Below, in pieces: positions 1 to 64,000 of a stretch of 64,000 nt of DNA (position 1 is the first letter of the stretch; each line of letters starts with the position of its first letter). This stretch comes from Hericium rajendrae (Eukaryota > Basidiomycota > Agaricomycetes > Russulales > Hericiaceae), in contig CM065881.1 of NCBI GenBank assembly GCA_033439255.1, positions 2,728,001 to 2,792,000 on the forward strand, read 5' to 3'. The position numbers were made by a program, and so were the translations under genes. The notes below the pieces were generated by a model. The model saw nothing but the letters and a program-made list of their open reading frames with translations. It was not told the DNA's origin and did not search any database.

Positions 1-720
1 TACCCTCCGTCTCTATCCATTGTCACTAGAGCGGTCGGCTCTTCTGGCACAACTGGCCGTGGAAGAGAAGAATTCGCTCGAGAGCATCGAAGCGGCATAT
101 GACCTCGAGAGGGAACGAGTTGAAGATGAATGGAAGCGAGGACGGGATCGAATACGTGAGCGCCTTTTGGAAGGCATCGAAGAGCGCAGGCGGAAAGCGA
201 GAGAAGAGAAGGACGGGGAGGGCACCGTCGGTACGATCAGCTTCGCTCCTCACCTTGATTCATCTGTCCCAACTGACTCGCTACTCTAGACGCGTCTCTT
301 GACTCGCAATCACGCCCCCACATAACACGCAAGCTGCGCAATAAGTTAGGAACCTCGCCACCCCCAACGCCACTGTCAACGCAGATCAACGGCATAGGCC
401 CCGCAAGCAGCGGGCCCATCATCTCCGGCCCTATCACAAATCCACACTCACTCTCCGTCGACGAGCTACCCTCTCCCTTCCCTCTCCCTCTGACTGCAGC
501 ATCGCTGCCAAGCGCATCCTCGGGTGGTGGTGGTGGTGGAAATGGTCGGCGTCGCGCCAAAGGCGGTGGTTTCCAAGTGCAGGCCGTCGGTGGACTCGGA
601 AAGAGCTTCAGCGGTCTGACGAGCTGTAAAGAAAGTGAGATTGAGAGCGATCTGGGAGATATCAGAAGAGGCAATAAGCGACGGCGAGTTGCAGCCGGGG
701 CTATGGCAGGGAAGGCATGA
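1..720 (+). CDS. SDS3: Sds3-like Sin3/Rpd3 corepressor subunit, 3' part
   Basis: The gene starts upstream of the window. The first visible exon (to 230) encodes a charged coiled-coil stretch (LLAQLAVEEKNSLESIEAAY, then an Arg/Glu-rich helix). A 59-bp intron (231-289) follows, and exon 2 (290-720) ends at TGA 718-720. Exon 2 begins with DASLDSQSRPHITRKLRNK and is then Ser/Pro/Gly-rich with a (Gly)6 run and a basic tail (KRRRV). This coiled coil plus the RPHITRKLRNK block is how fungal Sds3-like proteins look. In the family, Sds3 bridges and stabilises the Sin3-Rpd3 histone deacetylase complex in the nucleus. The frame is intact. The exact edge of the first exon at bases 1-30 cannot be judged; bases up to 29 could be the end of an intron. 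Confidence 0.7.
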
Positions 721-1048
721 TGCCGGCGCTCAGGTTTCCCTTGCTTGTATTGTTTCTTCTTGGTCCCCTACTGGTCTCCTCGATCCTGTATTGCTGATGT
801 TTATCTCTCTCCTACCTCTTTGTCTTTATTAAGATCGCATTATTATACACCGCTATATTATTCACCGCCCATCTGTTGAGCCTGTCGAGACTGGACAATG
901 CAAGGACAATTTGTCGAGAGAGATGAATTTTCCCGGTCCAAGATACTCACGTGAGGTGTACGTCATCGGTCTTTGGGTCCTTCGCGGTCCCTCGTGGACC
1001 ATCCAACAGCTTCCAACGCGCGTTTGCTCGTGAACGCGACATGCTCGA
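721..1048. other. intergenic, SDS3 3' end to HD-domain gene
   Basis: This stretch should hold the 3' UTR of the Sds3-like gene and the promoter of the next gene. A CACGTG E-box palindrome lies at 949-954, about 95 bp before the first possible start. No ORF in it looks coding. Confidence 0.5.
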
Positions 1049-2297
1049 ATGCTTTCAAGGCTTACTCGATCTGTCTCCTCTCGAATCTCGAATCCTTCCA
1101 GGTCGTTTTTTAGGCGTAGTATGGAGCAATCAGACTCGTCGGTCAAGCCTTTCAAGCGCACATATCCCCCGCTGTATCAACCCACAGGAGAGCCATCGAT
1201 TGATAGATTGGCTTTCTTCCATATCCTCGAAAGATTGAAGGCATGATTAGCAGCGTCCCATGATCTGATGAAACTAAGAATCATTTCACCCACTCAGACT
1301 CAAAAGCGGACGGGATGGGTCAATAACGACGTTAGCTCGATCTCTGCACCTTCATGCCGGGTTTCTTACGCGCCGCACCGATGTTTTCAGATACCCAATC
1401 CAGAGAGGTGGCTATATGCCCAGCATGCGCTGTGATTGAAGCGGTACGCTTATATGCGCCCAGCATCTCGGACCATATGTACAGGATGGCAGTCCTGGCC
1501 ATGTGCAGCTCAGATACGCGTCTCGACATCGCGAAGTAAGTGATGCCATCCGTAATACAGACCTTTCCTGCGACCAAACGTGTTGTTGCAGGTGTGTGAT
1601 GATAGCCATTGTTCACGATCTGGCAGAAGCTCAAGGTAGTGTTGTCGTTTCATGCCCGCACCGCGGATGAAGGTGCATGTATGCGCCCTGTCTGATTCGC
1701 ATTTGCTCAGTCGGCGACATCGCCCCACGAGAACGCATACCGAAAGCGGAAAAGCACCGGTTAGAAGCTGTTAGTATTCTATCTGAAACTTCAAGTGTGT
1801 GGTCTCGTGTTAAACTTCGCTTCGCGTTCGCAGGAAGCGATGCAGAATTTTGTGCACGGGATGTTGCACAACAGTCCAGCTGCTCAAAGGATCGAGGCAT
1901 TGTGGAAGGTGCGTCCGGACTGTCTTATTATTTTTTGTTCAGAAGGATTCACGTTGGTGTTCAGGAATACGAGGATCAATCATCCGACGAAGCTCGGTTT
2001 GTGAAAGGTACTATTCAAGGAATGTTGTTCTTCGTATAACACCTCACAGTCTATACAGATCTCGACCGTTTCGAATTGGCGACGCAAGGTAAGTGCACAC
2101 TTGGACATGACACTGCCGCCTTAACACGTTTGCACCTTTCCAGCATTGGAGTACGAACGCGCACATGGTGCCTCGCTGCAGCCTTTCTTCGACAGCAGTC
2201 TTCCGGACTCTGCCATCCGGAGGTCCAAGAGTGGGGTGCAGACTTGGCGAAGGAGCGCGAGCAAATGCAGGAGGAGGCGTCTGAAAGGACACGCTAA
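1049..2297 (+). CDS. HD-domain 5'-deoxynucleotidase (HDDC2/YfbR/YGK1 family)
   Basis: Ten short exons (1049-1240, 1298-1330, 1391-1407, 1464-1535, 1592-1635, 1711-1769, 1834-1908, 1964-2007, 2059-2088, 2144-2297) encode the full family core: FHILERLKTQKRTGW, PESISDHMYRMAVLAM, the metal-binding IVHDLAEAQVGDIAP, and HPEVQEWGADLAKEREQ near the C-terminus. The family hydrolyses deoxynucleoside 5'-monophosphates with divalent metal. The first intron has a GC donor. Exon 3 is only 17 nt. There are two in-frame starts: 1121 gives the usual family length, while 1049 adds 24 residues rich in Arg/Ser with no acidic residue, as in a mitochondrial presequence. Between 2208 and 2214 the frame slips by one base relative to the conserved C-terminus. 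Read literally, the protein would run to a different end at 2367. Confidence 0.85.
1241..1297 (+). other. GC-AG intron in HD-domain gene
   Basis: No GT donor fits. Cutting before GCATGA at 1241 and after CACTCAG at 1297 joins ERLK to TQKRTGW exactly as in the protein family, so the donor dinucleotide is GC. Confidence 0.75.
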
Positions 2298-2712
2298 TCA
2301 TGAGCGCACGATTATAGATGCGGTCAAAGAAGTTCGCGGAGCAACTGACTCGTGTGTATCAGTATAAAGTATCGTTGGTGGCAAACTGGTGGTATAGAGA
2401 TGGATGGCAAGCAACAGCAAGTACGCGAGTAAGTGGTATGTATAATGAACAATATGTAATGAAGGTCAGGCAGTCTGTCCTTGACTGCGGTAGAGCAGGC
2501 CACGTTGGCAATGTGTCGTGGTGGGTATGGAATTTAAGCAAAAGAAAGTGACATCACAAATTAACGAATGAAAGGATAGGGTATATGCTTCAACATCATT
2601 ATCACAATTGTCGACGAATCGTCTCAAATTCACCTGTAAGTGCATTAGCTGAGAATTTTCCAGCTGAGAACTTTGTGGACTGTAGACTTACAATATGGCC
2701 AACCTATGCGCT
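2298..2712. other. intergenic between convergent genes
   Basis: AT-richer sequence between the stops of the HD-domain gene and BTB gene A. Probably two facing 3' UTRs. I see no gene or structured element. Confidence 0.5.
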
Positions 2713-3813
2713 TTAGTGCTCTGAACCTCCAACGTCCGCGTCCGCCGCCTTCTGCGCGGCTTCCACGGCGGCCCAGTCTTTAAACCCACAGTGCCCAGGC
2801 AACGCGAACCACAGCTTGCGCTGGATCATGTCGTTGATATAGTCCAACTTGGAGCAGCAGTCGCCACAAAGGTCATTGAACTCAGGTTGCTCCGTGCAAT
2901 CGACAGCGAGACGGAACGAGAAGTTAAAAACGCTGTCCGACAGGCTTCGGTAGTACAACTCGACCTGGTGCATAGCTGCGCTGGAGAGGCCTTTGCAGGT
3001 TTCCGGTGTATCGGGAGGACCGTGGCAGTGGAAGTCCTCCATGGACCATATGAAGTCCTCGCACAGCTCGTCGAGCGTCTCCATCATCTTCTCCCTAAAC
3101 TCGAGGACCATCCTCCGGGCATTTATAGAGGCCTCGCCATGAGGCATTCCGTGGCTGTCAAGGATCTTGAGCACTCCGCCGCCTTTGGAAGCTGCTACGT
3201 GGCACGCTGCAGGGAGAATTATGGGCACGTCGCAGCTGAGGCTGATTTTGACGCCGAGCAGACCGCTGAAGTCGGACGGGAAAATCTTGCGACCCCATTG
3301 GAATCTGAGTGTCTTCGGGAAGAGGACTAGAATGTAGTCGATGAGCTCTTTCCGCAGCTCGTCGAGCATGTACTTGCTTGCGATGCGCAGTAGGCGGCCA
3401 GTCGTTTCGAGTTGGAATTGCCGTCGTGCGTGGGAGGATAGCTAGCAAGTTGGAAGGTGAGCGACGCGCGCATGGACAGGGTGTAGTTGTCATGACTACT
3501 CACCGGAGACGATAGAGGGACTTCAGAAGATGGGAGAAGTCGTTTGCGGCGTCGGGAAGGCGAATCAGGAGCATCCGTCGAACGTGTCGTTATCTTGCGG
3601 ATTGCACATGGAAAACATATCTTTGAAGATCCTGGAATGCATGGAGAGGACGCTTTGATGGACACGGAAGCCTGTGGATTCGCAAACGAGGACAACGTTC
3701 CCGTCGGCGAGCCAGAATTCGACATCCTTGGTGAAGGAGGATGAGTTCGAGTCGGACGAATCGAGGACCGCCTCGTCCTCTCTGCGGCGTTTGGGTGGAC
3801 GCGATGTGTCCAT
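2713..3813 (-). CDS. BTB/POZ domain protein A, frame-broken copy
   Basis: Exon 1 (3813-3504) holds a basic nuclear-signal-like start (PPKRRR) and a BTB/POZ half with GNVVLVCESTGFRVHQSVL and the F-K-D-M-F helix. The intron is 3503-3442. Exon 2 (3441-2713) holds LLRIASKYMLDELRKELI and a long conserved C-terminal region. The layout matches the neighbouring BTB-B gene, so the pair is a tandem duplication. BTB domains mediate dimerisation; the function of this fungal expansion is unknown. Two single-base losses break the frame: one near 3570 after the DTFDGC segment (where BTB-B has GGCPVIR) and one near 3428 just after the intron. Either this copy is decaying or the sequence has errors. Start ATG at 3813. 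Confidence 0.7.
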
Positions 3814-4756: not shown

Positions 4757-5847
4757 TCATGGACTGCCTACAATGATGTCCGCATCTAACGCTGTCTGCG
4801 CCGTCTTGACCGCCTCCCAATCCTTGAACCTACAATGGCTAGGCAAAGCGTTCCACAATTTCCTTCGCAGAATATTCTCTATATCCTTGAGTTTGTCCCA
4901 ACAGGCCGAGCAGAGCTCGTCAAACTCGGGATCTGCATTGGCAAGGCGGAACGGCAGCCCGAAACACGGCTCCTTCATGTCCTTGAAGAACGCCTCGAAA
5001 TAGTGCATGCCTGCGCTCGATATGCCTCGACAGCCCACAATGCCCACGGACTGGCACGGAAACTCATGCATGGACCAGATGAGCTCCTCGCAGAGTGCAC
5101 TGAGCGTAGCCACCAGCTTGTCCTTGGAGTCGAGGCAGAGCCGCCGAGCAGCGAGCGACGCCTCGCCGGGAACCTCGGCGCTGTCGACGATGCTCAGCGC
5201 GCCTTTGAACGCGGCGCGGTAGCACGCGACGGGCAGGATCTCGGGGACCTGGCAGTTGAGGGCGATCTCGACGCCGAGCAGACCGTTGAACTCCACGAGC
5301 GGCATGTCGCCGAAGTCCCGTCTCAGCTCGCCAAAGGTCGTTGGGAAGATTGCGCGGAGGTGGTCAACGACTGCGTTGCGCACGTCAATGCATTTGTACT
5401 TGGTCGCGATGTGCAGGAGGTTGCCTAGATCTTCCAGCTTGAATGTTCGTGTTGGCGGAGGGTATCTGAGGGTGAACATGAACATGCGCGTCTGTACGAG
5501 GTTGATACGAAGGCAACTGTCGTGACGCCTCACCGAAGATAAAGGGCCTTCAAGAGTTGTGAGAAATCATCGGCTTTATCTGATGGACGAATGACGGGAC
5601 AGCCTCCGTATGTCTCGCCGTGAAGGCCATGATCACAGACTGCGAAGATGTCCTTGAAGACGGTAGAATGTAAAGCGAGGACACTCTGATGGACGCGGAA
5701 ACCCGTGGATTCGCAGGCGATGACGATATTTCCATCTAAGAACCAGTATTCACTGTCCAAGGAGAATACCGTTGGAACAGGGACTGGCGATGATTCGCTT
5801 TCACCAGTCAGTGTGAGTTCACTGCTACTAGGAAAATTGAATTCCAT
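4757..5847 (-). CDS. BTB/POZ domain protein B
   Basis: An intact two-exon gene: exon 1 5847-5534, intron 5533-5466, exon 2 5465-4757, giving 340 residues. Residues about 30-110 are the BTB/POZ fold (WFLDGNIVIACESTGFRVHQ, then VLALHSTVFKDIF). The junction reads ALYLR then YPPPTRTFKLED, with a helix LLHIATKYKCIDVRNAVVDH typical of the BACK-like segment in basidiomycete BTB proteins. A conserved C-terminal half (CEELIWSMHEFPC, WNALPSHCRFKDW) is shared with BTB-A. Cysteines are frequent, but no zinc motif is clear. The molecular role is unknown. It serves as the reference for locating the frame breaks in BTB-A. Confidence 0.85.
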
Positions 5848-6560
5848 GGTGTCACGGCGTCTCTTCGAGTGTGATGGGGTTGACTGTAGCGTAGATCCTA
5901 GGAAACACTTGGATTGTTAGACAGCGGACGTATCAGGTTCGAGAAACAAGACGAACCCTAGGTAGTAGAGATGGTGTAAGACAGAGCGCAGGGAATGTTC
6001 AAGCGTTCCGCTTAAATACATGCCGACGCGTAGGAAGCTCCATTTTACCGAGCGACTATCGACTTCTTACTCCAAAAGCGCTTCGCGATGTCGTCCTTGG
6101 AGTGACGCGACGCGTTCATGGAAGATCGTCGAAGGTTATTTCCGAGCCAGAGTGATGATGCGGACACGAATCGGGGATCATCGATCATCAGAGAGTTTTC
6201 GCAGCCCTCCAACTCGACCCCAGCCAGTCCTACGCTCCATTGGTCGCTCCACCCTGCCACCCAAAGCCGCTTACAGTTGCATCGGCACTCCACCAGTCGA
6301 GTCTGAGTCTGAGTCTGTCAGTTGCGAAAACTCTCTATCGCAGCAAGCGCGTGACGTGCGACTATCTCCTGTGTAAAGTCAGCAACGTGACGGACCATTC
6401 ATGAGGATGACTGTTTCTGGAGGGGTGTCCAGCTCAGCGTTGAGTAAAGAAATTCGGAACAAAAAGCCATAGGGTCCTCGGCATCGACAGAATACAAGAT
6501 TTGATTGGTCGTCGGCTATTGGTATACACCATCATACACGCCTGACTTTTGCTAAATTTG
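5848..6560. other. intergenic, BTB-B promoter and ADE17 3' side
   Basis: About 710 bp with no convincing gene. A short tandem GAGTCT repeat (three copies) lies at about 6299-6317. Confidence 0.45.
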
Positions 6561-8719
6561 TTAGTGGTGGAATAACCTCAGTGAAGTATGAGCAAAGACA
6601 ATGCCATGCTCATCTGCCGCCTTGATGCACTCCGCATCCATGACGCTCCCCGACGGCGCCGCCAAGTACCTGACCCCGCTCCTGCGTGCCCGGTGCACAT
6701 TGTCGGGGAACGGGAAGAACGCGTCACTCGAGCACGCGACGCCGTCGAGCTGCCGCGCCTGGTCCGCGCGCTCCTCGGGCGTCAGCGGCGCGGGAACCTC
6801 CTCGAAGAGCGATTCCCACTGCGCCTTCTCGCCGCCCTCGAGCACCTCGCCGCCGACGAAGAGGTCGATCGCGTTCGCCTTCTCTGCGCGCTTCACGCCC
6901 TTCTTGAACGGCAGCGCGAGCACGCGCGGGTTGTGCCGCAGCCACCAGTTATCCGCCTTAGATCCCGGCGAGCCGCGTGCAGTGGATGCGCGACTGCTGG
7001 CCCGCGCCGAGGCCGATGATGGAGCCGTGGTAGGCGTAGGCGACGCTGTTGGATTGGGTATACTTGAGAGCGAGGGTGGCGACGATCAAGTCGGTGATAG
7101 CAGCTTCCGGGAGCTGCAGACTTATAAGAAGATGAGAGGTGCGTAGCATAGGCATGACTCGCCTCCTTGTTTTGGGTGACGATGTTAGTGAATAAGTTAG
7201 CATCGATCTTGGCGTCGTTCCTCCTCTGCTGCAGGGAGATGCCATAGACTTGTCGTGTTTCGATCTCCCCAGGAACGTAGTCCGCGTCGATCTAGAGAAG
7301 TTTAGCTATGTGCGTATTCTGGTCAAGCTAAGAGCGCTACCTGGAGCACGCAGTATTTTCCGGCCTTTTTCTTTCTGAGCACATCAAGCGCTTCCTCGGA
7401 GTATCCAGGAGCGATGATCCCATCGGACACCTCGCGAGAGATGATGCGGGCGGTTGCGAAGTCGCAAGGTGCGGACAACGCGATGAAGTCACCGAAGGAT
7501 GACATGCGATCAGCGCCTGGGTTCGCGACTAAGATTAGAGACCATCACGACTTCTAGGATAAACTCACCTCGAGCGCGGGCATAGGCGGATGCAAGCGGC
7601 GTCAGAGGCTCTTTCAGGTCGTCCACGCCGTACACTTTCTTCTCAATCTCACTGAGCTCAATGCCGACGGCCGCTCCCGCAGGCGACACATGCTTGAACG
7701 ATGCAGCAGCAGGGAGGTTGAGCGCCTCTTGAAGCTCCTTCACGAGGGCCCATGAATTCAGTGCATCCAGGAGGTTGATGTATCCGGGAGATCCAAAAAG
7801 AACTGATCGGAACCTTAGTATGGAACTAGAGGGGCATAAAACATTTAGTCACCTTTGAAAGGCAGTTCACCCTCTGTCACGAAGGCCTGAGCAGGCTTCT
7901 GGTGCGGGTTGGCACCATATCTGAGAGCCATTCTCTGCACGGGCGCCGCGAGCTTATCTCCCAAAGATGCGTCCGCATACTGCTCCCTGAAGTATCCGCT
8001 GATAGCCTCGTCGTAGTGGGCAGTCTGCTCGAACGCCTTCAAAGCGAGTTTGTTCCGGACAGCCTGGCCCACCTCTCCCTTGCCTTCCTTCCAGGACTTC
8101 ACAAACTCGACGTAGTCTGCCGGGTCAGAGAGAATGGAGACGCGCTCGTGGTTTTTCGCAGCTGCGCGCAGGAGGGTGACACCCCCGATGTCAATCTCCT
8201 CAACGGCATCGGCGAGCGTGCAGCCTGGCTTTGAGATGGTGGAGGCGAACGGATACAGGTTGCACACCACGATGGAGATCTGCGAGATAGACTGCGCAGC
8301 GAGATCTTTGTGATCGGACTCGATGTTGCGTGCAAGAATGCCTATCTCAGATTTAGCAAGGATCTATCCAAAGACAATGCGATCTCACCTCCATGGACGG
8401 CAGGGTGCAAGGTCTTCACTCTTCCACCAAGCATCTCAGGTGCTTTGGTGATATCAGATACATCCCTGGAGCATTATAAACCCCCAGCCACGCATCCCAA
8501 AACGCAGTCGTGCAACTCACTGGATCGGAATGCCGGCATCTCTGATCTTCTTCGCTGTGCCACCCGACCCCAGCAAACGCACGCCGGCATCATGCAGACC
8601 CTGAGCCAAATCGAGAAGATTGGTCTTGTCGTAGACCGACAGAAGAGCTAGCGTGATTCATGGTCAAACGGCCTTGCGACCACGAAATATCAAGAGGTCT
8701 CACCGATGGAAGAAGTCAT
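6561..8719 (-). CDS. ADE17: bifunctional AICAR transformylase / IMP cyclohydrolase
   Basis: Eight exons: 8719-8704, 8647-8521, 8465-8389, 8341-7853, 7802-7569, 7528-7341, 7291-7163, 7113-6561. They encode the last two steps of IMP synthesis (formylation of AICAR by 10-formyl-THF, then ring closure), in the cytosol. The N-terminus is the MGS-like cyclohydrolase domain ([43 protein letters not shown]). The rest is the transformylase domain ([82 protein letters not shown]). The first exon is only 16 nt. The seventh intron uses a GC donor. At about 6957-6966 one extra base (GGG run) puts a stop right after RLAG; the conserved frame resumes at once and runs to TAA 6563-6561. Divergent from GRX5 across 763 bp. 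Confidence 0.92.
7114..7162 (-). other. GC-AG intron in ADE17
   Basis: On the minus strand the only junction that rebuilds NIVTQNKE followed by LPEAAITDL is GAG|GCGAGT ... CTGCAG|CTC, so the donor is GC in a strong context. Confidence 0.75.
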
Positions 8720-9482
8720 GATGCACAAGACTTGAATCAAACTTCAAGAGGAACAGGTCGATCTGCTTGAAGATGAGACGAAGGATGATTCCGACAAGCG
8801 CTTTCGAAAACTGATGACCTTACATTAGGGTTTGGGTCGCCATGACGTCGCTCGACAATTTACAAGACAACGGTCGACAACCAAACGAGTGTGCGAAAGG
8901 ATTTGTTCGACGTTCGACGTGTAGAATATTGCTAACTTACATTCATCGGGGACTCGCAATGCATACACTTGTCATGCTTCACAAAGATCAAGACGACCTG
9001 CTGCAGTGTCATTCCTAGACAAGTCGCATGGACCACAAGGGTGAATCTGTAGAACAGCCGTTGGAAATTTGTGAGCCAAAAAAAGAGATGCTCAGCTTCA
9101 TAACTGGTAATAGCAGAAGCAGCTGAACACGCGCATTTCAGGAAGATGCATCGAGTGGGCGGGTCAGATCCATTGAGTCCGCGGATCGGATGCATCTCAG
9201 AAAAGAATGCCTCACTGACCACGTCCTGCACCACCAAACCCTAGCGAGACTGCTACAGAACAGTGAGAGTTCGAGCACGGTACCATTTGCCATGATGTGT
9301 CTGCAACGTGGAGTCGTGGACTCATGAGCGTTGCAAGCGAAAAGCCAACAGGACGAAGCTCATTGGACAGCCGGCCGCGGCGGCCCTAAAAGGCAGCTCG
9401 GCGTGATGACGTAATGCCGATGGGAGCCTCGTAGAAATCGCTAACCCGTGTCTGCTCACACATCACCTCTCCCTCTACCACC
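8720..9482. promoter_or_regulatory. divergent promoter region ADE17 / GRX5
   Basis: 763 bp between two divergent starts with no coding pattern. It contains a TGACGTAA ATF/CREB-type site at 407-414 of the 9000s (9407-9414), 69 bp before the GRX5 ATG, and a GC palindrome (GGCCGCGGCGGCC) near 9373. Regulatory roles are inferred from sequence only. Confidence 0.4.
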
Positions 9483-11119: not shown

Positions 11120-14100
11120 ATGGCTGAGCGCTCGAGACGCGAACGGACTGACAAGCTTTCGAAATTGGCTGCGTATAAGAAGGCGAGGGAGGGCGGTAAA
11201 AGAGAATGGAAGGTTCGTTGCGAGATTCCTACCTGATTGACGCGTTTTATCAGGATCTATGGGCTGACTTTATTTTTTCTGGATATTAGCCAGAGGAGGA
11301 TACAGAACTATATGATGAGGTCACAGAGGAGCAATACAAGAGTGTGGTCAAGGGCCGTCTAGCCAAAGACGACTTCGTCGTAGATGACGGAACGGGTGAA
11401 TATCTCGATAACGGCATGGATGATTGGGGTGGAGGCAGTGGAGACGAGAAGGAGGCATGGGATGAGGACGATGAAGTTGATCGCCGGCTGAGTGCGCATA
11501 GCTCGCGTCATCATATGCTGTTTACTGACTTTCAGAGTATACAGCCAAGAATAAGAAAAGTAAGAAGGAGCCCAAGGCGAAAGGCAAACCGAAGGCGCCA
11601 CCACCACCTGTAGCGGCGGCCTCCATGAGCGCGTACAGACCGGTGGTTGATGTTGAAAAAGAGAGCGATTTCATGCAGTCGCTGCTCGGCGGCATGGACG
11701 AGCTGGATCACACCGCTATTGCCGCCGCCAAATCATCGAAAGTTCGGAAAAGAAAACCTCGCCTGACTATACATATGACAGATCCTCTTCGCCAGCTCGC
11801 GCCTCCTTCCGCAAGCCGCATGCCTCCACACACGGTTATGATGATTCATCTGATGGCCCAATCTCAGACGGCTTCGACATAGGCCGCGATCCATCGTCCG
11901 ATGACGGATTCATGATGAGTCCAAAGAAGAAGGTCAAGAGAGATGTGCAAGGAATTGCCCCCGCCGTCGAGAAACTCGGCCGTCTGGATGTGACAGGTTC
12001 TGCGCCGGTCAAAGACGAATACGACTACGACGCGTCATTCGACGAGATCGATATGGACGCGTTCATGGACGTTGACCAACAATCAGATACCAAACCTGGT
12101 GCAAAGACTGAGACCAAACCGAGCATCTTCCCAAAGAAGACGGACTCTGATCTTGGGAAGAAGCCTCTTGGGACAATCAACGGTTCGCCGTCCAAGAAAG
12201 AGGAGGCTAATCCCACCTGGCTGTCTGTATACGATTCTCTGACGGTCGCTTCCGACGAGTCGTTTGGAACGCTGAATGCCGCCACCGCTGCCGCCTCGTC
12301 TGCAAATGCGTCAAGCATCGATGCACTAGAATCGGATGGGTCTTTCCGCTTCTTCTGGATGGACTACCTCGAGCACGAAGGCGTCTTGTACTTCATTGGC
12401 AAGACGTTGGACAAGAAGACGAAAGCATATGTATCGTGCTGCGTCACTGTCAGCAATCTACAGCGCAACCTTTTCGTCCTTCCTCGACAGCGCCAGGTAG
12501 ACGAGGACGGGTTTGAAACCGACGTCGTCCCTGGGATGAAGGAGGTTTATGACGACTTCGACCAGGTGAGAAGGAAAGCAGGGATCAAGTCTTGGAGGGC
12601 GAAGTTCGTCAAGAGGAAGTATGCTTTCGGCGAAGACGACGTGCCTAAAGAAGAGACACAATGGCTGAAGGTCGTCTATGGCTTCAATGGTAGGCCTTCT
12701 AGCTATCCTTCATCTAACCTGTTAATGGGATTTTTGCCGGCAGAACCTGTGATACCGGCCAACGTCTGCAGTCCCAACTTTTCGAGAGTCTTCGGCACCA
12801 ACACTAACGCCTTCGAGCTTCTGGTCTTGAAACGCAAGATCATGGGACCATGCTGGCTGCAGATCAAGAAACCTCAGGTCGAATACAAAGGAGTCTGTGC
12901 CGTTCGTTCCATACCTTCCGTGCGACAAATCTGAAACTTTGTCACAGGTCTCTTGGTGCAAGCTGGAAGTCTCCATTTCGGATCCTAAGGACCTTAATCC
13001 CTTTTCGGATTCAGATCCAGAAGCACCGAAGGAAGTCCCTCCGCTCACAATTGCGAGTCTTAGTGTCCGGACAATCGTCAATCATCAAGAGAACATCAGG
13101 GAGATAGTCTGTGCAACAGTTCGGATCTGGTCCAACAGTAGGTCACCCTGCCATGGCACTAAGTCTCGTCTAATTCGGTTGATAGTTCAGCTGGACGATC
13201 CTACCCCACCCGAGTCCTTGCCTTGCTCAGTTCACACACTGGTTCGTCCACTTGAGCGATTCCCACCCAACTTTGAGAATGTCGCTCGCTCCAATGGCAA
13301 AGGCGTCATCTCGCCTATGCGAAATGAGCGGATGCTATTAAACAGCTTGCTGAGTACGATAATGCTTTCTCTCCTTTCTGACCTTCCATTGACGACGTTT
13401 GCGTTCCAGTCACTCTACACAAAGCCGACCCCGACGTGATAGTCGGACACGAATTCCTCGGTGTTTCTCTTGACGTTCTGCTCCACAGAATGCGGGAACT
13501 GAAGGCAGACCACTGGTCACGCATTGGTCGCTTCCGTCGATCAAGATGGCCCAATATCGGCAAGCAAGGCACGAATCTGCGTTTCCTCAACGGCAGACTC
13601 CTGTGCGATCTAGCGTCCGACGGCGCGAAGAGCATGATCGCCTCTACGACGTGGTCGCTCTCGGAAATGTGCAAGACCCATCTGAAGAGCGAGCGGCAGG
13701 ATATCGATCCCGATGACACGGCCAGCTACTTCGACGGAAGCGTCAGCTCGCCCGATCGACTCATGACGTTCGTGCGGCACTGTGAGCTGGACGCGCATTA
13801 CCAGATGGCGATCGCGTCCAAAGTGCAGATATTGCCGCTGACGAGGCAGTTGACAAATCTCGCTGGCAACTCATGGTATGTGATACCAAGTGATCGCTTA
13901 CAGGACGGGAGATTCACGGCGGATATAGGAACAAGACGCTGAACGGCGGTCGTGCTGAGCGTAACGAGTACATTTTGCTGCACGAGTTTCATCGTCTCAA
14001 GTACATCTGCCCTGACAAGTCATGGGGAAAGAAAACTGCTCCGGTCAAGAACGAGAACGAGGACGATGCGGAAGGAAAAGCAACTAAGAAGAGGGATAAG

Positions 14101-16394
14101 TACAAGGGTGGTCTCGTCTTCGAGCCCAAGCGAGGGCTCTACGACAAGTTCATCCTGGTCATGGACTTCAATTCGCTGTATCCGAGTATCATCCAGGAGT
14201 ACAACATCGATTTCACGACCGTGGATCGTGTCGAGGATGAGGTCAGTTGCTTTGTCGCTGTACGCATAAGTCGGGCTCTTATCGCATATTGTAGAATGGA
14301 GAAGAGAAGATACCTGAGCCGCCGTCATCTGAGGTGCCGCAGGGCGTTCTTCCGCGGCTTATTGCGACCCTCGTCAATCGACGTCGGGCGGTCAAATCGT
14401 TGATGAAGGATCGCTCTGTGTCCCAAGCCAAACTGCTTCAGGTATTTCATTTCCACCGCACTTCCGAAACGATGCTGATGCGATCTGTATGCAGTACGAC
14501 ATCAAGCAGCAAGCCCTGAAGCTCACGGCGAACAGTATGTATGGATGTCTTGGGTTCGAATACTCAAGGTTCTATGCACGGCCACTGGCTGCCTTGACGA
14601 CATTCAAAGGCCGAGAGATTCTAACGCATACAAGAGAACTGGCAGAAAGCCTTCAATTGGATGTGAGCTCGATACGAACTCGTTTTAACGGAAGATGCTA
14701 AAATGTCACAGGTTGTGTACGGAGACACGGATTCCGTCTTCGTGAACTCGAACGTCACAGAGCTGTCCGAAGCCCTCAGAATCTCTGCCGAATTCAAGAA
14801 AGCCGTCAACGACCGCTACAAGCTGCTGGAAATCGACTTGGACGGCATTTTCCAGCGCTTGCTCCTTTTGCAGAAGAAGAAGTACGCGGCCATCAAGGTC
14901 GAAGATGGCACACGGACATCGACGGAAGTGAAAGGTCTGGACATGAAGCGCAGAGAATACTGCGCGCTTTCCAAGGCTGTATCACAGTGAGTAATAATAG
15001 CTGGTATCTGATTCGTCGTATTGAAAACTTCCCAGATACGTTCTCGACCAAATCCTCTCTGGTGAAGCGACGGAGACAGTGGTCGAGCGAATCCACGAAT
15101 ACCTGACAACCGTGGGCGAAGACGTGCGCGCGGGCAAGGTCAAGCTCGACGAGTTCATCATCTTCAAGCGGCTCGGTAAGAGGCCCGAGGACTATCCCGA
15201 CTCGAAGAGCCAGCCCCACGTGCAGGTCGCGCTCAGGCTGAAGGCGAAAGGAGGGAATGCGCGTGCAGGAGACGTCATGCCGTACATATTCGCCTTGGGC
15301 GAGACGGGCGAGACGTCCAAGACGGCGCAGGCGGAGAGAGCCAGGCACCCTGATGATTTCCGCAGAGCGGGGAGCGAGTTCAAGATCGGTAAGCCGTCGT
15401 TCTTAAACTAATCTTACTCCTCTTGTTGATTGGCTGCCGGTCAGACTACGAGTATTATCTGTCGCAGCAGATCCTGCCGCCCATCGAGCGTCTTTGCGAA
15501 CCCATAGAAGGCACAGACCGTGCACGCCTAGCGGAATGTTTGGGTATGTAACAGTTCCTCCAATTCCGAGCAAGGATCTGATATCTTTGGATCAGGGCTC
15601 GATCCTGGACGATACCGCACCGTCGTAGCCGGCGAGGAAGAAGAGCGCTACTTCGGTACCCTCGATTCACAGCTGTCCGACACCGAACGGTTCAAAGACG
15701 CAATGCCGTTCGTCGTGCGGTGTCGGAAATGTGACGCCCAGATGTCCTTCGCACCGCTCGGCGATCTCGAGGTGAGCTTCTTCGCTCTGCTAACTATTTC
15801 TCCTCGTTGAACGCACAATTCTAGTCCTCGTTGATTACCCGCAAGGGTCTTCTGTGTTCTGCGTGCAACGCTCCTCTGAATACCGCCAGTCTGCAGGTGC
15901 AGCTGGAGAACCAGATCCGGGAGCGGATATCCAAGTACTACGAGGGATGGACAGTTTGCGATGATGCGACGTGCGGGAACCGGACGCGGATGATGGGGGT
16001 CTATGGGCACAGGTGCCTTAAGACAGGTTGCATGGGAAGAGTTTCGTTTGAGGTATGTTGGGTATGCTCGCAGATCGTCCTTGTGCTGGTGCTGAATTCT
16101 GGAACCTTTCCAGTACTCGGATTCAATGTTGTATAATCAGTTACGGTATTTCGCTTACCTTTTCGATGTGGAGAAAGCGGTGAAAGCGGCCACTGGTGCC
16201 AAACAAGGTGTGTACTTTTGGTTCGTCTTTCAAGTAGGCAATAGCTGATGGCATTGTCAGATCAAATCAGGAAGCTGGCAACAGACCATCACGCTTTCTT
16301 GACAGTGATGTCGCACACGGTCGACCGCTTCCTCCAGCAGAACGGCCGGAGATGGGTAGACATGGGTTCTTTGTTTTCCTTCATGAAGCTATGA
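11120..16394 (+). CDS. POL1: DNA polymerase alpha catalytic subunit
   Basis: A large multi-exon family-B polymerase. The N-terminus ([20 protein letters not shown]) and the acidic [14 protein letters not shown] block are the Pol12/primase-binding region of Pol alpha. Then come an inactive exonuclease-like region ([20 protein letters not shown]), motif [18 protein letters not shown] near 14163, motif B with [14 protein letters not shown], and motif C YGDTDS near 14716. The C-terminus has two Cys pairs each for CysA (CRKC, CSAC) and CysB (CDDATC, CLKTGC). It extends RNA primers at origins and Okazaki fragments. Exon 1 is 11120-11212, exon 2 starts at 11290, and the last exon ends with TGA 16392-16394. 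One base appears lost near 11757 (CC run after VRKRK), shifting the frame to the following SPDYTYDRS segment. The exon 2/3 junction near 11470-11540 is uncertain. Confidence 0.95.
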
Positions 16395-16584: not shown

Positions 16585-17357
16585 TTACGTCCCGCCATTA
16601 GGCGCTGGCGGGCCTAAACCAGACGGCAAAGCACCTATTGTTGCGTACCCCCGGCGATGATACAACAAGAGGCATAGTCCGCAGCGCGTCATCCTCCACA
16701 GAAATCGACTCGTCCCTGGCGCGTCCTCGACGCGCACCACCCGCGCAACGTATAGCTTCGACGCAACGCCCGCCCCGCTCCACATCCCCGGGTCCGTCCA
16801 GTTGTCCAGCGCGTCGAGATCGTGCAGCGCCGCGCTCGTGACGAGCCTGCACGAGAGCGCGCCGAGACTGCCGTGCAGCACGGGCAGGCCTCGCGCGACG
16901 TGGACCACGGGACCGCGTCGAATGGGCGCGGGTGCATGTCTGGGCGGGAGAAGAGGAGCGCGTGGTGCGCCTGCGTTGCGGAGAGGAGGTTGATAACCAT
17001 ATGGCCGGGATCCATGGGGGTGAGCGTGGAAAGGGTCGTGGCCATTCGTGAAGGTATACGCAGGGCGAAGGCGACGAGGGGATGTGGTTCCATGGCGATG
17101 GATGTGAAGGAAGAGAGGGTCGCGCCGTGGAAGCAGGATGAGTCTGGTGAGATGCCAGAGGTGATGTTCGACAAGGGTTTGGGCCGGTGTTCTGGAGGCA
17201 TGAATGACGTGACGACAGCGACGGGTTGTGCGGTTTCGCGAAGGAGGGCGCGTATGCTATGGAGCAGCTCGGGACTGCTGGTGGCGGTCGAATTGTACCG
17301 TGCAAAGCTTCGGGATATCTCCAGAAATGCATGCCGTCGCGCAGAAGGTATAAGCAT
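16585..17357 (-). CDS. flavin reductase-like domain protein, probably mitochondrial
   Basis: Read from ATG 17357, the first about 25 residues (MLIPSARRHAFLEISRSFAR) look like a mitochondrial presequence. The body has the FMN-binding split-barrel pattern of the flavin reductase-like family: PVAVVTSFMP, GATLSSFTSIAMEPHPLVAF, ATQAHHALLFSRPDMH, GLPVLHGSLGALSCRLV, and a closing LLYHRRGYATIG. The family binds FMN and reduces free flavin or acts as a small oxidoreductase; the substrate is unknown. One base is missing near 16905 (GG where GGG would keep frame), between the PFDAVPW and HVARGLPVLH segments. No intron is needed. TAA at 16587-16585. Confidence 0.75.
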
Positions 17358-30454: not shown

Positions 30455-31907
<1,453 letters not shown>

Positions 31908-40520: not shown

Positions 40521-42608
<2,088 letters not shown>

Positions 42609-44940: not shown

Positions 44941-46766
44941 ATGGACAGCGCCGAGCTACCCTCTCCCATCATGTACGATGGCGCACCATCGCCCATCTTC
45001 GATGCCCCCGAATTCCCCTCGCTCCGCCGAGTCAAGCCGCTGCCCAAGCGCAGGCGCACATCCGCAGCATCGGACACCATCCCGCAGGACGTCGACGGCA
45101 TGCTGCCCCCGATGCTGCCCCCGATGCCCGGCCCCGACGCCACCGCCGAGGAGCTGCTCGCGCACGCCGAGGAGCTCTCCGCGCAGATGGCGCTCCAGTC
45201 GTACTACATGCCCATCATCGGCGGCATGCAGGACTTCATCAAGAACGAGGCGGGCTATGCGGAGCACACGGGCACGCCGCCGATCGATTTTGGCGCCGGC
45301 TTTGGCGGTGGCAACGATGAGGACGAGCACGGCGACGGGGACTACATCGACCATCTGCAGCAGCCGGGCAACACGAAGAAGAGGAAGGTGCCAGCGAATC
45401 AGTCTGCGTCGCAGCACGGGCCTGATTCGGCGGATGGGCATTCTGGCGGGGAGGACGAGCAGGCAGATAGGGCCGTCCCGGGCGGGATGCGGCAGGACGC
45501 AGATGCACAGGACGCTGCGCCGCTGCCGCCGGCGCCGGAGAAGCAGAGGCGGGGGAAGATGCTGCCGGCGACGTTGGTTGGGCTGCAGCATAAAGAGATA
45601 CTCAAGAATCGCAAACGGCAGTTGGCGGCCGTGCTCGGTGCGCTTCTCATGGTGATACCCTCGCTCTCGACCAGGCTCTTTCAGCAAATTATCCACTCTT
45701 TAATACCGCCTTTGGTGGTTCGCTCAAGGTGTCTGGCATCAAGCCGTCGGTGCATCGGCGAGCGAGCCGTCTCGCTCGTCGCTATGCTAAGGCCATACAC
45801 CCCGCTCTCCCGGACGGCACACAACAATACCCATTTCCGACGAGCGAGTTCACCTTTGTGTGTCACAGCTCCAGTGAGTGTCCCAGCGTCCGATCCACGT
45901 CCGGTCTCAAATTAGCGTTTTCCCCATGTACAGCGTCTGACCGTCTCATCGCCACTCGTGAGGAAGTTGCTGTCCTCCACGCCCGCTTCGAAGCAGAACT
46001 GGCACGCCAAGCAGCGAAGGCTGCAGAGGCAGCCAAGCTCGCGGCCGAGGCTGCCCGTGCTGCATCCAAGGCGACTGAACGGGCTCAGCGAAAGGCTCGC
46101 ACTGGGGCACCGGCGTCCCAGCCCGTCGAGCCGGTGGTGAACGGTCAGGCCTCCTGGCGTCAAGCTCCGGGGCAAGAAGAAGAAACGCTCCGCACTCGCA
46201 AACGCGTCCAATCCGCATCATCTGCGCAACTACGTCCCGTCGCGCCTGCCAAACCAGGGCCCGCGAACTCTGCGCCGGAGAACTTCCTCAGCCCGTTTCC
46301 GCTTCAATTCCTGTCAGCGCAGATCCCGCCACGGCGGCGAAAGAACAACGCGCCGGTGCCGGCGATCCCGCAGCTCGTGAACCCGGCTGACGAGTGGATC
46401 TGTCCGTTCTGTGAGTATGAGCTGTTCTACGGCGATGAGCAGGCCTATCGCCGCGGGATGCGCAATCGCAAGAAGATCCTTAAACGTCGACGTCGCGCCA
46501 GGGAGCGCGCCGCGGCGGCCGCTAGTGGTGCCAATGCGGCGGCAGCACCGACGAACGTGGCTGAGGACGAAGCAGAGGAACGGTACGACGTGATGGAGCA
46601 GAAGGCAGCGTCGAAGGCGGGGCAGCCTAAGACGGGGCGAGAAAAAGAAGGAGATAGAAGCGAGCCAGTAGAGCAGGCAGGGGAGATAGATAGAGACGAT
46701 TGTTATTATGGACTGGGACAAACAGCCTACACTCATTCGTGCATGGAATGTATGGATTTTAGTTGA
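44941..46766 (+). CDS. conserved unknown protein with zinc-ribbon-like C-terminus
   Basis: Not a family I can name. From ATG 44941: an acidic/Pro start, a nuclear-signal-like KPLPKRRRT, Met/Pro-rich and acidic stretches, KKRKV, then LALDQALSANYPLFNTAF and a long Ala/Lys coiled coil (REEVAVLHARFEAELARQAA). The end has WICPFCEYELFYGDEQAYRR with CxxC, followed by the strongly basic KILKRRRRARERAAAAASG. This suggests a nuclear, possibly nucleic-acid-binding protein. One intron at 45870-45937. Frame breaks: one base missing near 45647, one extra near 46170 (GGGG) and one missing near 46261; the last two cancel, leaving about 30 residues out of frame. TGA 46764-46766. Confidence 0.65.
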
Positions 46767-53666: not shown

Positions 53667-55311
53667 ATGGAAGGACAACTCAAGGAGGTCTGTCCGTCTC
53701 CTCAAGTTCAACGACTGTATATTCACGTCTTGGCCAGCTTCTCCCTTCCTGCACGATAAAAATTCACAGGTCAGACAGATCGCGCTCACCAATTTACTCG
53801 GCCAGACACCCAAAGATGCTCCCTACCGCAAAATTTTCTTCGATGGGCTCGGCGGCGGCGGACTGCAGAAGGCGAAGGAGAGCGAGGTCATCCGCGATCT
53901 AAAGTTATTGTGCAGGGATAACCTGGTGCGCACGCTTTCTCGTGAAATTTTCTCCAAGCCGAACTCACAGCGAACGCACCGGCAGGCCGTTGCTCACGAT
54001 GCATTCCGCGCCCTCGTCAATCTTTCAGACTCGCCGATGCTGGTCGGACCGCTTTCTCGAAAAGTCGTTCCTAGACTTCCTCGTATCGTCCATCATCGTG
54101 CGTCCCCAACCAACAGCTTCTCCCGCAAAGACCTGACGAAACCCGCCCAGAACCCCCACGCAACGCTCGCCGATCTCGCAGCGATGCTGATCTCCAACCT
54201 CACCGCATCGCCCACCACCTGCGCCGCCCTCCTGTCCACCTCCATCCCCGTCATCCCCGACGACCGCGTCCCCGGCGGCCTGTACCCCACCCTGTCGCGC
54301 TCAGGGACCTGCGCCGCGCCCGTGCCGTACCCCTCCGGCGCCGAGCGCGCCGCGCCCGCGCTGCCGCTGCTCGTCGACGCCTTCGTGCAGGGCGCGACCG
54401 TCGACGAGGCGCGCACGCGCAAGAGCGAGCTGCACTTCCTCGCGAGCGTCTTCGCGAACATCACCACGGTGCGTCCCTCTGTCCCTGCCCTCGCAGGACT
54501 GCACTCACCGCGCACAGTCGCCCGCGGGCCGGCTGTTCTTCCTGACTCCCGCGCCCGCGCGCCCTGCACATCCCGCGGGGCCCCTCGAGTACCCGCTCGC
54601 GAAGCTCGTCGTCTTCACGGAGCACAAGGACACGATCCGCCGCGGCGGCGTCGCGTCGACGATCAAGTGCGTGCCCCCACTTCGGTGTCCACGTTAACAT
54701 GGTACTCACCCCGACACGCGACAGAAACTGCGCGTTCTACACACAAGGCCACCAAGCGCTGCTGCTTCCCGAGACCGAGATGGTCGCCGTGCCGCCGTCG
54801 AGCATAAAAGCCCCCGGCATCGACGCGCTGCCGTACATCCTGCTCCCTCTCGCCGGCCCCGAGGAGTTCGACCTCGAGGTGCGCATCCTACCCCACACAC
54901 GCCCCGGCGCGACCCTACGCTGACCGTATTGGTGTGCAGGAGCAAGAGCTGCTCCCGCCCGCGCTGCAGTTCCTCCCGCCGACGAAGACGCGCGAGCCAG
55001 ACCCCGCGCTGCGCCTTTTGCACGTCGAGACGCTGCTGCTGCTCTGCACGACCCGCTGGGGGCGCGACTATCTCCGCGCGCACGGCGTGTATGAGGTCGT
55101 GCGCGCGCTGCACGAGAGCGAGGCCGTCGACAAGGTGCGTTTTCCCTCTCTGTTTGTTGAGTGTGCGTTGGCTGATGAGGTATAGATTGCGGAGCATGTC
55201 GAGCGGCTTGTGAATTTGTTGAAGCGCGATGAGGGGCCGGAGACGGCGCGGGATTTGCAGATCGAGGAGATCGAGCTGGCGGGGGAGGATGATGTGGTCG
55301 AGGAGGTGTAG
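53667..55311 (+). CDS. HGH1: Hgh1-like eEF2 folding co-factor (DUF383/384)
   Basis: Exon 1 is only 21 nt (53667-53687, MEGQLKE), then LLPFLHDKNSQVRQIALTNL-type ARM sequence, AHDAFRALVNLSDSP, LADLAAMLISNLTASP, HFLASVFANITT, the signature RRGGVASTIKNCAFYTQGHQ, LPYILLPLAGPEEFDLEEQE, ALQFLPPTKTREPD and TRWGRDYLRAHGVYEVVRAL. Hgh1 is an ARM-repeat chaperone adaptor that brings TRiC and Hsp90 to translation elongation factor 2. Frame breaks: one base missing at 53743-53745 (CCC) and one extra at about 54046 (GG) before DRFLEKSF. GC content is high and codon use strongly G/C-ending. TAG 55309-55311. Confidence 0.88.
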
Positions 55312-55723: not shown

Positions 55724-57577
55724 CTACGCAGACTCGCGCACGGTGACGTCCTCGACCGACACGCGCACGCGCCACCGCCGCGCGCAGCCCTCCTCCTCGC
55801 TCGTCTCCGCGTCCGTCGTGTTGCTGCTGCTCTCGCCGCCGTAGCAGCGCGCGCGCACCAGGGCCGCCGCCGCCGCGCGCTTCGTGACGGGGCTCGGCGG
55901 GTAGAGCGAGAACGGGCTCGGCGGGAGCAGCGCGGGCGACGGGAGCGCTTTGAGCGCGGGCGTGGGCAGCAGGTCGGGGGCAGCGCGCCGAGCACGTCCG
56001 CGAGGGGCGGGAACGGCGAGGCGTCGAGGTCGGCAAAGTCGAGGTCGTTGTCGGAGTGCGGGGGGCGAGGGCGAGCGGCGGCGTGCTGAGCGCGGAGGAC
56101 GCGGTGGTGGTCGTGCTGTAGGCGGTGAGCGCGGGCGAGGCGGTGAGCGCCTGGGGAGGCCGTGTGTGGGGGGAGGGCGGCTCTGGCGCGCTCGGCGGGT
56201 CGGCATGAGAGGTCGGGAGCGAGAAATAGGAGATGGATGGAGAGGTGGGGAATGGGGAGGGCGGAAGAGACGAGGGAGCGGGAGAGGGATTGGTGGATGT
56301 CGGAGTGGGGAGGTTGAATTTGTCGGCAGAATTACGGTCTATGGGTGTTGTTGCGTCTGGCTCGGGATCTTGAGTTGAGTGTTGGGAGGACGGCGCGTCC
56401 CGGGTCACCGCTGGTTCGGGCGTCATGCTATCGAGCAGGGGCAGGAAGCGGAATTTAGATCCAAAGCGATCTGGGGGTGAAGTTGGAGATGTAGATGAAA
56501 TGGGATGAGGAGATGGGTCACTCGGTGGCGATTGTATATGTGAGACAGAGGTGTCTTCGGTGGTGGGCGAAGATGTTCCGAGAGGTGCCGGTGCTTTAAG
56601 AGGCGCGGGCGGGTTGTCATGTATTGATGATGATGTGGGAGAAGGTGCTCTATTTGGCTGAGAGTGCGGTGGTGGATTTGGCGAGGCAGACTGCGCAGAC
56701 CACCGGGATGGCGGGGGTGGAGCACGGGAGGTCGCTGCGCGGGGAAGAAGGGGCAGGAGCCCAATAGGCACGTTTCTGAGAAAATGGCGCTGCGGACGGA
56801 CGTGTGGCTCGTCGACGTCGGTGTCTACATCCACGTTGAGCAGGAACTCAGGCTCTGGCTCATAGTCGGGGTCCAGAGGCTGCTCAGCGCGGGGAAGTGA
56901 CCGCTGGATCTCTTTGAGTTCCAGCATGTCTCTGAGGAGATGCGTGAGTAAGAACAATGAAACGGAGGAGTGCTTGAGGTGTGAGAGGAGGGGTAGGAGG
57001 GGGCGGGTGGGGACGAAGAGTAAAGTATGTATGGGGAACGTGTTATTGATTTCAGAACTGCAGGGAGGGGGCAAACTGGTGATACAGTACAGGGGCTTCG
57101 GCGAACGGGACGGGCAGGGACTAGCATGCCACGGCCGAAAGCACATGTCCAGCACATAGGCCCGGACTGGGCTATTCGGCGCATCCTTGTGACAGACCAA
57201 ATGGAATAAAAGGCGAATGCTCACTGGTATGTGAGACGCGGCGTAACGTCCGCTGGGGAGCGGTCCCACTCGTCGGCGAGGAACACCTGGTTGCGGTCTC
57301 TGCGCAAAACTGGACGCATTTGCGCACACGACCACATTCTGAACTGGCCGGGGACGGGCTGGAGGGAGGGGAGTTGGCGGCGCTGGACGTCGCGCTGGAT
57401 GACTTCTTCAAACAGGCCCTCATCGGTAAAGAAGCCGGGAAGGGAAAGGCGGGAAAAGTAGGTGAGGACGGGAAGAGCAGGCGAGGAGACGACTTGAAGC
57501 AGTCCGTTAGAAAACTGTCCACGCCGGACATACCCGAACCCCTTTCGGATCCCCGTCGCCGTTCCCGATGACTTCAT
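55724..57577 (-). CDS. conserved unknown proline-rich protein
   Basis: I do not recognise the family. From ATG 57577 (MKSSGTATGIRKGFGYVRRG) the first about 230 residues look globular: LPVLTYFSRLSLPGFFTDEG, LFEEVIQRDVQRRQL, MRPVLRRDRNQVFLADEWDR, IRLLFHLVCHKDAPNSPVRA and LLTHLLRDMLELKEIQRSLP. The rest is a long Pro/Ser/Thr-rich region with a conserved-looking end (ALKALPSPALLPPSPFSLYP, CYGGESSSNTTDAETSEEE, WRVRVSVEDVTVRES). No intron is needed. Frame breaks: one base missing near 57224, one in the G6 run at 56060-56065 and one in the G5 run at 55976-55980. No catalytic or membrane motif seen. TAG 55726-55724. Confidence 0.6.
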
Positions 57578-58466: not shown

Positions 58467-59405
58467 TCACTGGTCAATCTCAAACAACAGCATCTCCGCC
58501 GTTTCCTCCCCCACATTCGCCACCGCCAGCTCCTGCCCCGGCTCCGCAACAACATACAGCCCGTCCCCTCCCTCAACACGACCTCCCCCGCGCCCGCACC
58601 CGCAACGCTGACCGCCGCGCCCCGCGCCACGTCCGCATTATACCCCGACGTCTGTATCACATGCACATACGCCCTCCTTGCCGCCAGCACCCGCGGGCGC
58701 GCCGCCCCTGCCTCCAAAATCGTCGCAAACAGCGACACGGGCGCGTGCACGGGCGCAGGCCCCGCCGCCTCGCGCTCCGTCGACACGCCCGGCGCGCCCG
58801 CGGGCGCGACGACGCGCACCCACGCCTGCGCCTTGTCCGCGTCGGCGAAGCGGCGCGTGTAGTACGCGGGCGGGAGGCGCGCCTGCGCGGGCGTGGCCCA
58901 GATCTGGAGGAAGTGCACGGGCTGCGCGCCGTGCGCGAGCTCGCTGTGGCGGATGCCCGTGCCGGCGGAGGTCATCTGCAGGTCGCCGCGGCGCAGGACT
59001 TCCTTGTTGCCCATCGAATCGTTGCTGGCGCGGTGTCAGGGAGTGGGAAGGAAGAGGAGGCGAGGGGGCGTACTGCTGCAGCTCGCCGGAGACGATGTAG
59101 GAGAAGATCTCGAACTCGCGGTGCCCGTGCGTGCCGAAGCCTGTGTGCGGCGCGACGCGGTCCTCGTTGATGACGCGCAGGGAGCCGAACTCGGTGTGCG
59201 CTGCATCAGAATAGCTATTGTTAAGAATGAAAAGCAGTCAGCATGCTGCGGTGGGCGATTGTGAGCGAGAAGCGTACTCGGCGAAGGAGAAGGTGTGGAA
59301 ACTTTTCAGCCAGCCGTGGTCCGCCCTACCGCGCTCCGTGCTGGGGCGGACGAGGAACTTCATAGGGGAAGTCTCAGCCTCAATCTTTGTCTGCGTGGGC
59401 AACAT
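58467..59405 (-). CDS. pirin-family bicupin B
   Basis: From ATG 59405 ([20 protein letters not shown]): [38 protein letters not shown], the metal site [39 protein letters not shown] and TGIRHSE, then [41 protein letters not shown], a cupin 2 half and a closing [10 protein letters not shown]. The two His of HGH plus RHSE keep the four pirin Fe ligands that pirin A lacks in part. Introns are at about 59334-59211 and 59076-59008. One base is missing in the CCCC run at 58565-58568 near the end. Enzyme (quercetinase-like) or regulatory role cannot be chosen from sequence. TGA 58469-58467. Confidence 0.85.
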
Positions 59406-59740
59406 GATAGATCTATGAATGGAGGGAGGGCTTGAAGTTGAATGGGATACGGGAGGCCTTGATAGCGGATGTTAGGAGTGAAGACTTTGTAAAAGCCAGC
59501 TTATAGATGCTTGGAGGGGAGGAAATGTGGCTCTTCAGTCGGCATCGGGTTCTCTTATATATTTTCTATGGCAGTTGAGACCTTGAATTACAGAAATGGC
59601 GTCCTACGTACAGGAGATGAGCGGAGCTGCCTGATATGGCTTGCGCGCACACACGGCGGGGAGGGCGGGATTAGTCAGCAGGCTGATGCGCCGACATCGA
59701 TCACCAAATAAGGCAAAGCGCGTCAACGTCGCTGATGCCA
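59406..59740. other. divergent promoter of pirin B and unknown gene
   Basis: 335 bp, no coding pattern. Confidence 0.4.
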
Positions 59741-63420: not shown

Positions 63421-63700
63421 GGGGTATTACCCCACTCAGATAGCAACTATGTCGGACCTTTCAGCCGGCTCGAGTTCTACTCTGAGACCTTAGCCAGGAG
63501 TGGTAGTTCCTGGGTTCGAGGGGACACTACGATGAGTAGCGTGGGCTCTGTCAAATCTTTTTTATGCGAGTACCCGCTTAACCCCCCTGAGTGGCTGATC
63601 TGGGGCTGATTCGAACCCGGGACCTTCATGCCGTTAAGCAGAGAGGTGCCGTATTGCAGACCGGGAAGCATGGTGCCACTAAGCCATGCTCGCCCTTCTA
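63421..63700 (-). mobile_element. tRNA-derived SINE-like element
   Basis: The minus strand reads, from about 63690 down, a Pol III A-box-like TGGCTTAGTGG, then 58 nt further a B-box-like GGGTTCGAATC (around 63612), as in a tRNA gene, but the 3' half of the T-stem and the acceptor stem do not pair. About 200 nt of non-tRNA sequence follows, down to a GGGGTAATACCCC palindrome at 63421-63433. A second GGGTTCGA lies on the plus strand near 63512. Conserved boxes plus a degenerate cloverleaf and a unique tail fit a short interspersed element rather than a working tRNA. Ends and target-site duplication were not established. Confidence 0.4.
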
Positions 63701-63839
63701 ATATTATATTTACCATTCAAAGTATAAACAATCATTATCAACCATGTGCAGATATTTCTGTCCACAAAGGCCATACTATGAGACACGAGAGAGACGAATT
63801 CCTTGGCTCGCCTGATAAAAGAAAGGAACCAAGACTCTG

Positions 63840-63868
63840 ACGAAACCAAGGGGGAAACCAAGGGGGTT
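63840..63868 (+). repeat. short tandem GAAACCAAGGGGG repeat
   Basis: Two adjacent copies of GAAACCAAGGGGG; possibly chance or slippage. Confidence 0.5.
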
Positions 63869-64000
63869 CAGTCTCCGACTGACGGGGCAACGTGCGCTGT
63901 GAATCCAGATTCGCCATTCACGTAAAGAAACGCCTCATATCCTCAAACACGATCATATTAGCTATAGATGGTGCTAGTGATATACAGAGGATATAGAGGA

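Follow-up and report, generated by a model that had tools for sequence, protein, structure and literature searches.

Single-base frame breaks in a 64-kb stretch of the Hericium rajendrae genome: probable residual consensus errors of a polished nanopore assembly

Gene-splitting errors have been described for nanopore assemblies, in which, according to the Kastor study (PMC12007338), losses of a base lie at homopolymers and gains are tied to no particular homopolymer. The genome considered here is that of the culinary mushroom Hericium rajendrae. Its strain NPCB A08 is described in the published text as a wild dikaryon with a heterozygosity of 3.61%, the nanopore reads of which were assembled with NECAT, corrected by two Racon rounds and two Pilon rounds with Illumina reads, and then treated with purge_haplotigs (PMC10608310). 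The DNA analysed, referred to below as the window, is a stretch of 64,000 nucleotides (C4:2,728,001-2,792,000) from a genome sequence of 46,767,965 bases in 19 contigs (for example C1, 5,307,752 bases, and C6, 3,238,877 bases), and in all likelihood belongs to contig 4 of the published NPCB A08 assembly. Conserved genes in the window change frame by single bases. With a probability of about 0.92 these breaks are errors left in the assembly consensus and not features of the genome, and most likely the artefact is spread over the genome in patches, is locally dense and survived polishing. An earlier note on this DNA had attributed the breaks to an uncorrected assembly; given the correction rounds reported, the errors must instead have outlasted correction.

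Frame breaks in the window and elsewhere in the genome

Three breaks in the window are confirmed by homology that leaves no room for an intron (Table 1). In the ATIC-like gene a three-frame comparison places four bases between two frames where the relatives hold one residue, and the 139 residues past the break match the relatives up to the chain end. The flavin reductase-like gene matches one Flavin_Reduct Pfam profile in two frames that overlap in the DNA at 16896-16860, which places the loss near 16890. The pirin gene has its N-terminal part and its cupin part in different frames, and a reading by eye is free of gaps to about 58565. Beyond the breaks the frames resume as conserved. Of nine sites named in the earlier note, the gain at 6957-6966 and the losses at 16905 and 58565-58568 are thus borne out, the exact place of the last being read by eye.

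The other named sites fare less uniformly. The gains claimed at 27349-27354 and 54046 and the loss claimed at 56060-56065 are supported by codon statistics only. A Pfam search gave no match beyond the site at 27349-27357, and for the genes called at 3390, at 55982-56061 and at 62793, as for 32877, 27357 and 46169, it showed no homology spanning the sites. A break at 53743-53745 is plausible from a reading of the DNA, and an intron fits there as well. Of the nine named sites, three bear out by homology the statement that no intron is possible; at 53743 that statement is doubtful.

Table 1. Genes and frame-break sites in the window (position 1 is its first base)
Feature	Position	Strand	Basis
ATIC-like gene (AICAR transformylase / IMP cyclohydrolase)	6564..8720	-	PDB relatives, best 7mgq; span from gene model; one frame break
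Confirmed single-base gain, ATIC-like gene	6957..6966	-	Homology; model gain at 6962, 16.1 nats
POL1 (DNA polymerase alpha catalytic subunit)	11206..16302	+	No proven break; one model call, 11808, 10.7 nats
Confirmed single-base loss, flavin reductase-like gene	16860..16905	-	Flavin_Reduct in two frames; model loss at 16889, 10.3 nats
Single-base gain in gene model 25657-28238	27349..27357	+	Ab initio, 15.6 nats
Named site	32877	+	Codon score positive in none of the frames
DEAD/Helicase_C stretch, single open frame, unbroken	41316..42248	+	
Named site	46169..46172	+	Weak: 6.0 nats as part of a gain/loss pair
HGH1-like gene (DUF383/DUF384)	53667..55311	+	Pfam and gene model
Site in HGH1-like gene	53743..53745	+	46-nt intron-only model fits as well
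Single-base gain, HGH1-like gene	54040..54050	+	Ab initio, 10.1 nats
Two single-base losses near C runs (55982 and 56061)	55980..56065	-	Ab initio, 23.8 nats jointly; homopolymer weight
Pirin gene, one frame break, intron about 59025-59073	58485..59327	-	Pfam and gene model
Single-base loss in pirin (about 58565)	58560..58572	-	Place read by eye; model gives loss at 58705 plus an intron

Introns are short in this genome (median 56 nt in the gene model described below), so that a frame change alone means little, and most of the frame changes checked were ordinary short introns. In POL1 the comparison with solved polymerase alpha chains gave 12 frame changes (hand count, three frames), all with room for an intron, and the one model call lies in the poorly conserved N-terminal part. 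A second model call in the ATIC-like gene, at 7116, was rejected as false. The two flanking frames indicate a GC-AG intron of about 49 nt there (window 7114-7162, minus strand), which a model confined to GT-AG introns miscalls as a frameshift.

Breaks of the same kind occur outside the window. Exon-by-exon matches of seven conserved families provided 59.5 kb of conserved coding sequence with 94 junctions in 87 clusters (181 of 182 rows; the DEAD row from the window itself was omitted), and nearly all junctions are ordinary introns. Reading of the DNA revealed a single-base gain with no gap both in an HSP70 gene at C7:1,050,303, found via the gene model, and in a chaperonin gene at C7:~1,921,330, which is presumably CCT-delta. 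A kinesin gene at C4:2,711,634, 16 kb before the window, was read as having lost a single base (9.5 nats). The junction test left eight candidates shorter than 40 nt, of which two (chaperonin and kinesin) were opened and six were not, and the three breaks elsewhere are a lower bound. The breaks are thus spread over the genome irrespective of gene importance. Five further model calls, not read in the DNA, fall within 3.0 kb of coding sequence at an HSP70-like locus (C2:3,599,300-3,603,664), possibly a second dense patch. Among the DEAD-helicase matches two pairs have equal or near-equal scores (C7:2,197,119 with C12:2,142,298, and C5:3,331,318 with C16:743,088), and are perhaps recent duplications.

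Density of breaks and calibration of the gene model

The gene model consists of phase-specific 5-mers, GT-AG introns and optional single-base frameshifts at a penalty of 7 nats, and its training set was the window plus 20 control loci, each of 10 kb; a call with evidence of at least 10 nats is termed strong. It made 14 calls in 28.6 kb of coding sequence in the window, affecting 11 of 23 gene models, compared with 18 calls in 80.7 kb at 9 of the 20 control loci. The earlier note had counted roughly 19 broken genes out of 28. Breaks do exist, but the model finds fewer, and at least one of its calls, that at 7116, is false. Given that 38 of 60 injected breaks were found in calibration, the true number may nevertheless come nearer to 19 of 28.

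Strong calls are 5.6-fold denser in the window than in the controls (10 versus 5, p=0.0012), and counting the pair at 55982 and 56061, which share one joint score, only once leaves 9 versus 5 (p=0.003). For all calls, at the lower threshold, the excess is 2.2-fold (p=0.04, or p=0.06 without the known false call). Pfam matches cover about 6.9 kb of the window's coding sequence, a sum made by hand with AICARFT counted at full length; two breaks (p=0.087) or three (p=0.018) fall within it. Seven HSP70 loci with 16.9 kb of coding sequence carry eight calls, all in two of the seven and one of at least 10 nats; with these loci added to the controls the p value for strong calls is 0.0007. The HSP70 loci therefore match the window in density for weak calls and not for strong ones. 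Control calls are themselves patchy (dispersion p=0.015 by chi-square, 0.027 by Monte Carlo), 1.7% of the draws reach 14 calls when the control loci are resampled by bootstrap, and the 6 kb directly downstream of the window gave no call in 1,074 coding bases. As the window was picked by a reader who had noticed breaks, part of its excess may be due to selection.

Two calibrations were made. In the second, a single call, below 10 nats, was made in 108 kb of synthetic intact coding sequence, and 20 of the 38 injected breaks recovered reached 10 nats. The first, on synthetic genes lacking proper starts and stops, gave 0.27 false calls per kb and recovered 17 of 31 injected breaks; the conditions of real genes lie between the two. 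Among six breaks read in the DNA the direction given by the model was correct in five, the HSP70 gain having been called a loss; the pirin break was placed about 140 bases off, and a conserved part of POL1 (14535-14646) was mistaken for an intron. Homopolymer run lengths show no clear difference between the window and the 20 loci, and near-identical repeats, sought in window 1-3000 and 29000-36000 as a yardstick of error, were absent there.

Losses, gains and the rival explanations

The calls comprise nine losses and five gains in the window, and eight losses and ten gains in the controls. For the homopolymer test the position read by eye in pirin, 58567, replaced the model's 58705, and the HSP70 site was entered as a gain. 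The 10 losses of at least 9 nats have a weight of 0.18 in runs of at least four bases, compared with 0.05 by chance (P=0.002), an effect owed mostly to 55982 and 56061; with runs of at least three bases, P=0.083. The 13 gains have a weight of 0.02 in runs of at least four bases, compared with 0.06 by chance, and in runs of at least three they are rarer than by chance (0.12 versus 0.24). The claim that most breaks are a base lost in a homopolymer therefore holds for the losses only, and the gains show no such preference. A further test asked whether the gains look like two alleles written one after the other, as two synonymous bases side by side. Restricted to transitions, the observed value is 0.34, compared with 0.24 for random insertion (P=0.019) and close to the 0.35 of simulated allele merging, a statistic that was chosen after the unrestricted test had failed.

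These patterns would fit two sources of error. The losses may be homopolymer miscalls of the nanopore reads left in place by correction. Some of the gains could stem from reads of two diverged haplotypes merged into one consensus, for which haplotype merging is a plausible source; at a heterozygous site no single correction would then have majority support. The patchy density may reflect haplotype collapse or read coverage that varies along the chromosomes. A simpler account, in which all breaks are plain residual nanopore indels, no haplotypes are merged and density follows short-read coverage, comes close to an even chance. It agrees with the null result of the unrestricted test and with the Kastor assemblies, described as having the same split, losses at homopolymers and gains elsewhere (PMC12007338), so that haplotypes do not follow from the split by itself. 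Against it stand the two Pilon rounds reported for the assembly (PMC10608310), the deficit of gains in runs of three or more bases and the post hoc transition test.

Real decay, with genuine null alleles on the assembled haplotype and the other nucleus making up for them, is improbable, even though a highly heterozygous dikaryon could shelter such alleles and strong calls are denser in the window. Genes for HSP70 and for a chaperonin subunit, which are unlikely to be dying, are broken too, and sequence past the breaks is conserved. All changes found are of single bases, and no nonsense codon other than break-derived or intronic stops occurs in the stretches read of six broken genes, of which only the ATIC-like gene was read whole. 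For the two stretches searched, the intact copy elsewhere that the earlier note expected under decay is missing: neither 53500-59500 nor the ATIC-like stretch 5800-8800 has a second copy in the assembly beyond short paralogous or repeat matches. This proves little by itself, since the other haplotype was purged and a purged copy would be invisible. Together with the breaks in HSP70, chaperonin and kinesin genes, these observations favour assembly error over decay, as the earlier note had proposed. It is likewise quite improbable that some of the breaks represent genuine null alleles carried by one nucleus and covered by intact copies in the other, which would make the region a gene-loss block confined to one nuclear lineage. 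Misreading of ordinary short introns as frame changes is very unlikely as a general explanation; it is true of POL1, of nearly all of the 94 junctions and of the call at 7116, and may be true at 53743, but the confirmed breaks show either no gap or overlapping frames, and there it is already refuted. Programmed +1 ribosomal frameshifting at some gains is the least credible explanation and is extremely unlikely. The gains in the ATIC-like and HSP70 genes each have a stop of the upstream frame right at the break, and the HSP70 site presumably resembles the antizyme shift site. Such a stop is found, however, at only two of five gains examined by eye (none at the chaperonin, the HGH1-like gene or 27357), losses are as common as gains, and the best-matching HSP70 gene (C2:3,148,289-3,150,195) has no break call.

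Several points weigh against residual consensus error, and the error itself is deduced from the DNA and its homologues. Short-read polishing was carried out according to the published methods and should remove ordinary errors (PMC10608310). The unrestricted two-allele test, with any pair of bases, gave no signal (P=0.35 and 0.32), since chance alone produces the pattern often (0.54). With the HSP70 loci added to the controls, the density of weak calls in the window is hardly above theirs (p=0.086 for all calls). The false-call rate of the cruder calibration is as high as the call rate of the control loci, so that weak calls are no proof. Finally, two near-identical stretches on C7 and C12 (L013:2638-4376 and L018:1-1739; 98.5% identity) differ at 26 of 1,739 bases by substitution and show no indel, which bounds the local indel rate to below 0.86 per kb and means that errors are not dense everywhere. 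This 1.7-kb pair is a recent duplicate and is usable as an error yardstick.

A few other features were noted. Downstream of the ATIC-like gene, window 6190-6338 is a copy of a dispersed repeat of about 150-165 nt with 34 further matches on 14 contigs (71-93% identity), most of them slightly longer than the window copy; it resembles a short interspersed element or a miniature inverted-repeat transposable element and has no Rfam match. The tRNA and Rfam scans of the window were both empty. On C3 a near-palindrome (L007:382-1248; C3:2,000,382-2,001,248) has 867 bases that match their own reverse complement at 96% with no spacer, and represents a mobile element or else an artefact of fold-back.

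Consequences and comparison with described assemblies

Gene prediction on this assembly will yield truncated models and models bridged by spurious introns, and the gene model used here gave such results at pirin and HSP70. The earlier note, too, had expected truncated predictions. The published BUSCO value of 91.6% for NPCB A08, compared with 96.4% and 97.5% in two relatives, is in line with truncated predictions (PMC10608310). The same source is inconsistent on the genome of H. coralloides, given as 35.33 Mb in the text and as 55,905,675 bp in its Table 1 (PMC10608310). No report of such frame breaks for the H. rajendrae assembly was found in the publications consulted, the supplements of which were not searched. 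Claims of gene loss, of pseudogenes or of particular ratios of nonsynonymous to synonymous substitution (Ka/Ks) made from this assembly need read support. The biological interest is low, and the practical value lies in a warning on the gene set. If haplotype merging causes gains, short-read polishing would leave a particular class of error behind when wild dikaryons are assembled, and phasing the assembly would avoid it.

Two described systems come closest, as far as the published accounts consulted go. The assemblies of Kastor share with the present one single-base indels that split genes, the same division into losses and gains, and a lowered BUSCO; they are, however, of bacterial genomes, mostly without heterozygosity, whereas the present assembly is hybrid, polished and from a dikaryon, and its breaks are patchy in density (PMC12007338). 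The assembly of Laccaria trichodermophora is similar in coming from a heterokaryotic sample, in being a hybrid assembly treated with Pilon and Purge Haplotigs, and in its unresolved nuclear haplotypes. It differs in resting on PacBio instead of nanopore reads, and its account deals with duplication and fragmentation and not with single-base frame breaks (PMC10995626).

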